A DNA stretch of 51,977 nucleotides from Candidatus Adlerbacteria bacterium RIFCSPLOWO2_01_FULL_51_16. GTDB lineage: Bacteria > Patescibacteriota > Minisyncoccia > Phycocordibacterales > SBAW01. The stretch's first letter is position 1, and every line of letters starts with the position of its first letter. The stretch is taken from contig MEWX01000026.1 in NCBI GenBank assembly GCA_001775485.1, positions 1 through 51,977 of the forward strand, written 5' to 3'. A program made the position numbers and the translations under genes. The notes beneath the pieces were generated by a model. The model saw only the letters and a program-made list of their open reading frames with translations, had not been told where the DNA came from and ran no database searches. This document shows positions 51,215-51,977 of this stretch, one piece after another.

Positions 51215-51418
51215 TCAGTCCCACCACTTCGCGTTTTTAAGCTTGGGCATCGTGAGCGTAAAACGGACAACGGTCCATACAACGGGAACGAGCATGATCG
51301 TCAGGATGATCCCCGCAAACCAGGTCGCCGCCGTATTGCCTTCGCCTATTTCAGCAGCCAAAGGCGGAATCCAGAAGAGCATCGCGATAGGGCCTATGAC
51401 TCCCAAAAGATAAGTCAT
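51215..51418 (-). CDS. Small membrane protein, 67 aa, two TM helices
   Basis: MTYLLGVIGPIAMLFWIPPLAAEIGEGNTAATWFAGIILTIMLVPVVWTVVRFTLTMPKLKNAKWWD; SD GGGAGGTTGTC before ATG. Confidence 0.65.
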   Translation of the reverse strand: MTYLLGVIGPIAMLFWIPPLAAEIGEGNTAATWFAGIILTIMLVPVVWTVVRFTLTMPKLKNAKWWD

Positions 51419-51470
51419 GACAACCTCCCTTTCTGTCGAGACTATACCACAAGCACGATAAAACCGCCCC

Positions 51471-51506
51471 TACATTAACTTTACGCTATAGTGTAAAGTT
51501 AATGTA
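51471..51506. repeat. 14-bp perfect inverted repeat
   Basis: TACATTAACTTTAC-GCTATAGT-GTAAAGTTAATGTA; flanked by AAAACCGCCC direct repeats at 51460-51469 and 51513-51522. Confidence 0.93.
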
Positions 51507-51511
51507 TACGG

Positions 51512-51537
51512 CAAAACCGCCCGATGTGGGCGTTTTG
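51512..51537 (-). terminator. Putative terminator of the 16S transcript (minus strand)
   Basis: Minus strand AAAACGCCCACATCGGGCGGTTTT: GC stem with T-run. Confidence 0.65.
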
Positions 51538-51806
51538 ATTGAGCATTGACACACTTTCAGAGAATTATCCTTCACCCCAAGGGGTTCAGGATCGTCTAGA
51601 AGACGACCTTTCTCTTGTTCCGTTCGGCTTCGCGTTCCTCCCGTTGTACTCAACGGGTACTGGCGAAACCTCTAGTCCCTAACGGTTGGGGGGGCGTACC
51701 GAGTGCAATTTGGGATTAGCACTATCATCCGAGTATCTTGCGATACCCATCGCCATTCAGTTCTATCGTCAATTGAGCGATAGAACGCATTTCATTTGAA
51801 TTATTC
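51538..51806 (-). ncRNA. Hairpin-rich region immediately 3' of 16S helix 45 (trailer, insertion or intron-like; unclassified)
   Basis: Minus strand hairpins: GTTCTATCG/CGATAGAAC (9 bp), GGGTATC-GCAA-GATACTC, GGTTTCGC/GCGAAGCC, CCCGTT/AACGGG, GGTCGTC/GACGATC, ATCCTGAACCCCTTGGGGTGAAGGAT. Confidence 0.5.
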
Positions 51807-51977
51807 CACGACCAGCTTCCGCTAGCCGTGCCTTGTTACGACTTACTCCCTGTCACCGAGTTTACCGTGGTCCCCCTAAGGGAACTTCGGGCACTCCCGG
51901 CTTCCTTGAGTTGACGGGCGGTGAGTACAAGACTTGAGAACGTATTCACCGCGGTATAGCTGACCCGCGATTACTAG
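51807..51977 (-). rRNA. 16S ribosomal RNA, 3' portion (partial; gene continues beyond right edge)
   Basis: Reverse complement CTAGTAATCGCGGGTCAGCTATACCGCGGTGAATACGTTCTCAAGTCTTGTACTCACCGCCCGTC ... AGTCGTAACAAGG, then helix 45 CACGGCTAGC-GGAA-GCTGGTCGTG (51807-51830). Confidence 0.95.

Follow-up and report, generated by a model that had tools for sequence, protein, structure and literature searches.

A conserved pseudoknotted RNA domain follows helix 45 in a 16S rRNA gene of the Adlerbacteria lineage that lacks the anti-Shine-Dalgarno sequence

The 16S rRNA 3' end and its trailer

The window, by which we mean the whole 51,977-nt stretch of Candidatus Adlerbacteria DNA analysed here, terminates within a 16S rRNA gene on the minus strand, the 5' part of which lies on a different contig of this genome (G000:C12:1-410, minus strand). 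The 3' end of the gene is recognised at 51794-51977 on the minus strand by the Rfam model RF00177 with 141.7 bits, in a match that runs through the last position of the model. The gene can be followed through helix 45 (51807-51977, minus strand), and helix 45 (h45; 51807-51830) is intact and normal. Directly 3' of h45 the sequence reads GGAAUAAUUCAAAUG in place of GGAUCACCUCC, and the post-h45 sequence GAAUAAUUCAAAUGAAAUGCG (51786-51806, minus strand), the start of which is conserved within the order, occupies the site where the anti-Shine-Dalgarno GAUCACCUCC is expected. An initial annotation had remarked that no CCTCC is visible here, correctly, as none follows h45.

The trailer, read along the minus strand, consists of a hairpin P1, a GGCGAU element, a hairpin P2, an H-type pseudoknot, further hairpins, the 3' arm of a helix formed with the 16S leader, and a terminator hairpin. 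P1 (UUCUAUCG...CGAUAGAA; 51761-51785) is made up of the covarying helices 1 and 2. The conserved GGCGAU element (51749-51754), which takes the form GUCGAU or GUCGGU in other members of the order, is followed by P2 (GGGUAUC-GCAA-GAUACUC; 51731-51748), or helix 3, which carries double changes in all five of its pairs. The pseudoknot (51702-51730) has the stems S1 (GGAU/AUCC) and S2 (AGUGC/GCACU) and a loop 3 of sequence CAAAUU, and is seen in covariation, in a class-wide alignment and in a shuffle test. The short hairpin P3 (CCC-AACCGUUA-GGG; 51677-51690), placed by the genus alignment and by inspection, has a similar CGU-A loop across the genus, and P4 (GGUUUCGC...CCCGUUG-AGUA-CAACGGG...GCGAAGCC; 51626-51670), supported by the fold and by helix 6, is present in part of the genus only. 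The 3' arm of the leader-trailer helix (CCGAACGGAACAAGAGAA; 51610-51627) pairs with the leader on contig C12, and a terminator-like hairpin, CAAAACGCCC-ACAU-CGGGCGGUUUUG (51512-51537, minus strand), judged by its sequence, would end the 16S unit. The terminator stem is nearly symmetrical and one listing places it on the plus strand; position 51538, the end point of the region first annotated, directly adjoins it.

The P1 and P2 hairpins (51761-51785, and the tails in alignments A1 and A2) often end in the palindromic octamers UCAAUUGA, UCGAUCGA and UCGUACGA, which could make loop-loop contacts; UUCG and GCAA loops are the other frequent ends.

Fold and covariation

The 269 nt of minus strand at 51538-51806 fold with an MFE of -85 kcal/mol, as against -70.05 +/- 4.97 for shuffled sequences (z = -3.01), and none of 200 shuffles folds as well. 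In an alignment of 24 tails of the same genus, six helices including the H-type pseudoknot were proposed, in which 91.6% of cells are paired compared with 72.4% in shuffles and 33-52% with the partners slid, a control that somewhat favours the structure because the latter was partly derived from the same 24-tail alignment; the size of the pairing signal is far beyond this bias. Double-change cells number 148 against 47.7 in shuffles, changes on both sides are found in 25 of the 29 proposed pairs, and the observed covariation values were reached by 0 of 500 shuffles. Within the pseudoknot, S1 is paired in 95.8% and S2 in 99.2% of cells. The dense nested hairpins first read from the minus strand are borne out by these results, and the relatives, where an unrelated and unstructured spacer would have spoken against that reading, carry a conserved, covarying structure. 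A proposed pairing of GUCGAU with an AUCGAC site in the 16S was discarded: the 16S site is invariant and the element varies, so there is no covariation.

The pseudoknot extends beyond the genus. An alignment-free test detects a pseudoknot of this kind in 96% of the genus and 90% of other tails of the order compared with 39-40% of shuffles; the same test on longer class-wide windows gives 79-90% against 70-73% shuffled, which is not significant. In 19 trailers of other families of the class, chosen via a sequence anchor and not via pairing, the same pseudoknot is 75.8% paired (62.4% in shuffles) with 34 double-change cells (14.5 in shuffles). Beyond the order it is the anchored alignment, not the shuffle test, that supports the class-wide pseudoknot. 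The order-wide alignment (A1) misplaces stems, and a free search for pseudoknots, with the loop left unconstrained, is confounded by ordinary hairpins. Other families of the class have the pseudoknot with or without an anti-Shine-Dalgarno; where CACCUCC is intact, a GUCGAU element and a hairpin lie 3' of it, joined in several cases by the same pseudoknot. More distant CPR have kept the anti-Shine-Dalgarno, and the trailers of several contain GGUCGA or GGUCGGU elements, which resemble the GGCGAU element, and a hairpin with no obvious pseudoknot. The trailer domain has no match in Rfam.

Pairing of trailer and leader

The leader immediately upstream of the 16S 5' end has its complement in the conserved sequence CGGAACAAGAGAA near 51610-51627. 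In the window's genome 16 of 18 positions of this leader-trailer helix are paired, and all 47 loci compared pair at least 13 of 18, often 18 of 18, where shuffled leaders average 11.5. Several positions covary; position 15, for instance, is G-C in 22, U-A in 12 and C-G in 7 loci. Judged from these sequences, this is a predicted pre-16S processing helix, and since the 3' part of the stretch pairs with the 16S leader, the stretch itself is best read as a pre-rRNA trailer. The 23S gene lies 12-27 kb from the 16S in three relatives with long contigs (G003, G024 and G037), and the leader-trailer helix, the terminator hairpin that follows it and the distant 23S together point to the trailer of a stand-alone 16S transcript. 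The genome encodes an RNase III (G000:C23, 137 bits); Era is not recognised, with 25 bits against a cut-off of 116, as is the case in most CPR (PMC10582724, PMC12641178).

Absence of the anti-Shine-Dalgarno in relatives

Of 60 related genomes searched at the DNA level, 51 yielded the 16S end. The 29 loci that were read (L002-L030) all lack the anti-Shine-Dalgarno after h45 and all have a structured tail, and the motif is absent from every inspected same-order 16S that bears such a tail. Among the same-order genomes listed, seven of seven have the tail without CACCTCC. One same-order assembly, G244, holds two 16S ends (G244:C2:172185 and G244:C6:258), one without and one with CACCTCC, of which the second may be contamination. 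The signature of h45 followed by GTGGAA occurs in Adlerbacteria, Kaiserbacteria, Nomurabacteria, Taylorbacteria, Zambryskibacteria, Vogelbacteria and others, a set that was chosen by this very signature and says nothing on frequency. Across the class, roughly 40 of about 117 rows listed keep CACCTCC, some have CATCTCC, and the remainder are degenerate or without it; outside the class, nearly all of the CPR 16S ends among those listed finish in ACCTCC. Matches to the ribosomal protein bS21, compared with the loss of the anti-Shine-Dalgarno, are weak and scattered. The domain as a replacement for the anti-Shine-Dalgarno is a weakened proposition, since CACCUCC-bearing families also have the domain.

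In other CPR classes (L230-L249) AAGGAG or AGGGAG often stands directly after CCTCCTTTCTA and could pair with the anti-Shine-Dalgarno in the precursor. One of the 60 relatives (L016:771-860, on G034:C3) has, downstream of its tail, a fragment that combines ACAAGGTAGCCGTAG with GGATCACCTCCTTTC about 65 nt further on; the two match neighbouring parts of a canonical 16S 3' end.

Translation initiation

Two genomes of the order show no enrichment of Shine-Dalgarno motifs before starts: in the window's genome (G000) they are found at 8.2% of starts against 8.8% of internal positions, and in the complete genome G037 at 7.5% against 8.7%, fractions that are rough and probably too low because starts were crude, mechanically taken ORF starts. 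The words enriched before starts are TATAC, GTATA and ATAAT. A TAnnnT peak lies 12 nt before the ATG in G037 (19% against 1.6%) and is broader, from -15 to -12, in G000; such a -10 box near -12 would place the start of transcription at or near the ATG. Taken together, a -10 box at this distance and the absence of Shine-Dalgarno enrichment in the two order genomes suggest leaderless mRNAs. The anti-Shine-Dalgarno-bearing comparison genome G391 has no such box, but almost no Shine-Dalgarno enrichment either, which makes it a weak contrast. A few strong GGAGG motifs remain, including one before the ATG at 51418 on the minus strand, where (51418-51445) a strong GGGAGG precedes the ATG of a 67-aa ORF by 6 nt, in a genome with no overall Shine-Dalgarno enrichment and a 16S without its partner.

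Interpretation and alternatives

The stretch is probably the 3' trailer of a monocistronic 16S precursor, with a conserved domain that organises maturation and is then removed, in a lineage that has lost its anti-Shine-Dalgarno. The transcript would run from the leader through the 16S and the trailer to the terminator, with leader and trailer pairing in a long helix that is probably cut by RNase III. Between h45 and this helix would lie the RNA domain (P1, the GUCGAU element, P2, the H-type pseudoknot and further hairpins), which most likely organises the folding of the precursor and the trimming of its 3' end before it is removed; loss of the anti-Shine-Dalgarno from the mature 3' end would fit with translation starting on leaderless mRNAs. 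In several families of the class the domain follows an intact CACCUCC and there lies outside the expected mature 16S, from which we infer that it belongs to the precursor. Conservation this strong is, as a counterpoint, unusual in a discarded spacer, and where the anti-Shine-Dalgarno is gone, the ribosome could retain the domain.

A permanent 3' extension of the mature 16S that acts in the ribosome instead of the lost anti-Shine-Dalgarno is an unlikely alternative, to which the strong structural conservation, the loss of the motif in every inspected case of the order's version of the domain and the want of any DNA mark of a mature 3' end ahead of the domain all lend something; in other families, however, this domain is found 3' of an intact CACCUCC, and it is enclosed by the leader-trailer helix as a spacer would be. 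We are equally doubtful that in this order the pseudoknotted trailer stays on the mature 16S as a new 3' domain that has replaced the lost anti-Shine-Dalgarno tail, an extra RNA element for leaderless initiation. It seems very improbable that the 16S 3' end is generated by the pseudoknot domain acting as a new self-cleaving ribozyme: the domain is compact and adjoins that end, and the canonical maturation set is seen only in part (Era falls below its cut-off), but beyond GUCGAU and loop 3 there is no strictly conserved core of catalytic appearance, the stem sequences vary freely, and no similarity to the ribozymes of Rfam was found.

The initial annotation had offered the region as either a structured non-coding RNA or an intron-like insertion after h45, and only the former has stood. 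A self-splicing intron, be it group I, group II or degenerate, with an anti-Shine-Dalgarno exon downstream, is hardly credible. The 16S genes of close relatives do contain introns, as that annotation had stated for CPR, but these belong to group II and sit further upstream: in a positive-control scan of insertions in the 16S of four relatives, three match group II introns, L252 (511-592) and L255 (892-968, minus strand) over the gathering score and L254 (968-1037, minus strand) below it. These insertions measure about 600-1000 nt and interrupt the 16S near the h44 region. At 51300-51977 the Rfam group I and II models give no match at E<=10; none of the 29 inspected loci has an uninterrupted GGAUCACCUCC after h45; a 3' exon with CCUCC was not found; and GGATCACCTCCTTTC is absent from 59 of 60 relative genomes, the sole match (G034) being the separate downstream fragment described above. 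The pairing TGGCGA/TCGCCA once suggested as P3 is not conserved, as GGCGAU is and its TCGCCA partner is not, and the string ACAAGAGAAAGG that had resembled J8/7-P7' in the supposed 3' core is the 3' arm of the leader-trailer helix. We give just as little credence to a separate RNA that would provide the anti-Shine-Dalgarno in trans, for which the fragment in G034 might speak; it is confined to 1 of 60 genomes, and there is no Shine-Dalgarno enrichment that would require it.

Significance

Scattered loss of the anti-Shine-Dalgarno in Parcubacteria has already been published: loss of the CCUCC core together with scarce Shine-Dalgarno sequences is known from Campbellbacteria and Wolfebacteria (PMC10783764), and organisms without the core are generally without Shine-Dalgarno motifs (PMC6107228). 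No description of the trailer domain or of an order-wide loss was found in the open-licence literature. A 2025 survey reports that CPR 16S 3' ends are often incompletely annotated and that introns are frequent (PMC12641178). Those of the present clade may be mis-annotated, and these findings supply a concrete reason. Few bacterial sequences are as well conserved as the 3' end of 16S rRNA. In this large clade the anti-Shine-Dalgarno appears to have been dropped, many genes appear to start without leaders, and a covarying domain with no Rfam match appears to have been kept directly after h45. The clade offers a natural test of bacterial initiation without Shine-Dalgarno pairing, and of 16S precursor maturation without a recognisable Era. 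Were the domain retained, the bacterial small subunit here would carry an integral additional RNA element serving leaderless initiation.

Comparison with known systems

In bacterial pre-16S rRNA such as that of the E. coli rrn operons, leader and trailer pair into a helix processed by RNase III. The arrangement here shares the one long helix that encloses the 16S, and the RNase III gene is present; it differs in that h45 and the helix are separated by 130-250 nt of conserved, pseudoknot-containing structure, and in that the unit has neither tRNA nor 23S. The cyanobacterial 16S-23S spacer contains the conserved D1-D1' and box B helices, likewise folded elements of a transcribed rRNA spacer, whereas the present trailer differs in sequence and fold, contains an H-type pseudoknot, belongs to a monocistronic 16S and is without a counterpart in Rfam. 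Group II introns of CPR 16S genes occur in near relatives, yet theirs is an upstream position near h44 and a length of about 600-1000 nt, and the region after h45 bears no such signature. With the Flavobacteriia, Hodgkinia, Carsonella, Campbellbacteria and Wolfebacteria the order shares the missing anti-Shine-Dalgarno and, in the two genomes analysed, the missing Shine-Dalgarno enrichment; unlike in those CCUCC-lacking bacteria, the loss here runs through every inspected 16S of the order, and a structured trailer follows directly after h45.
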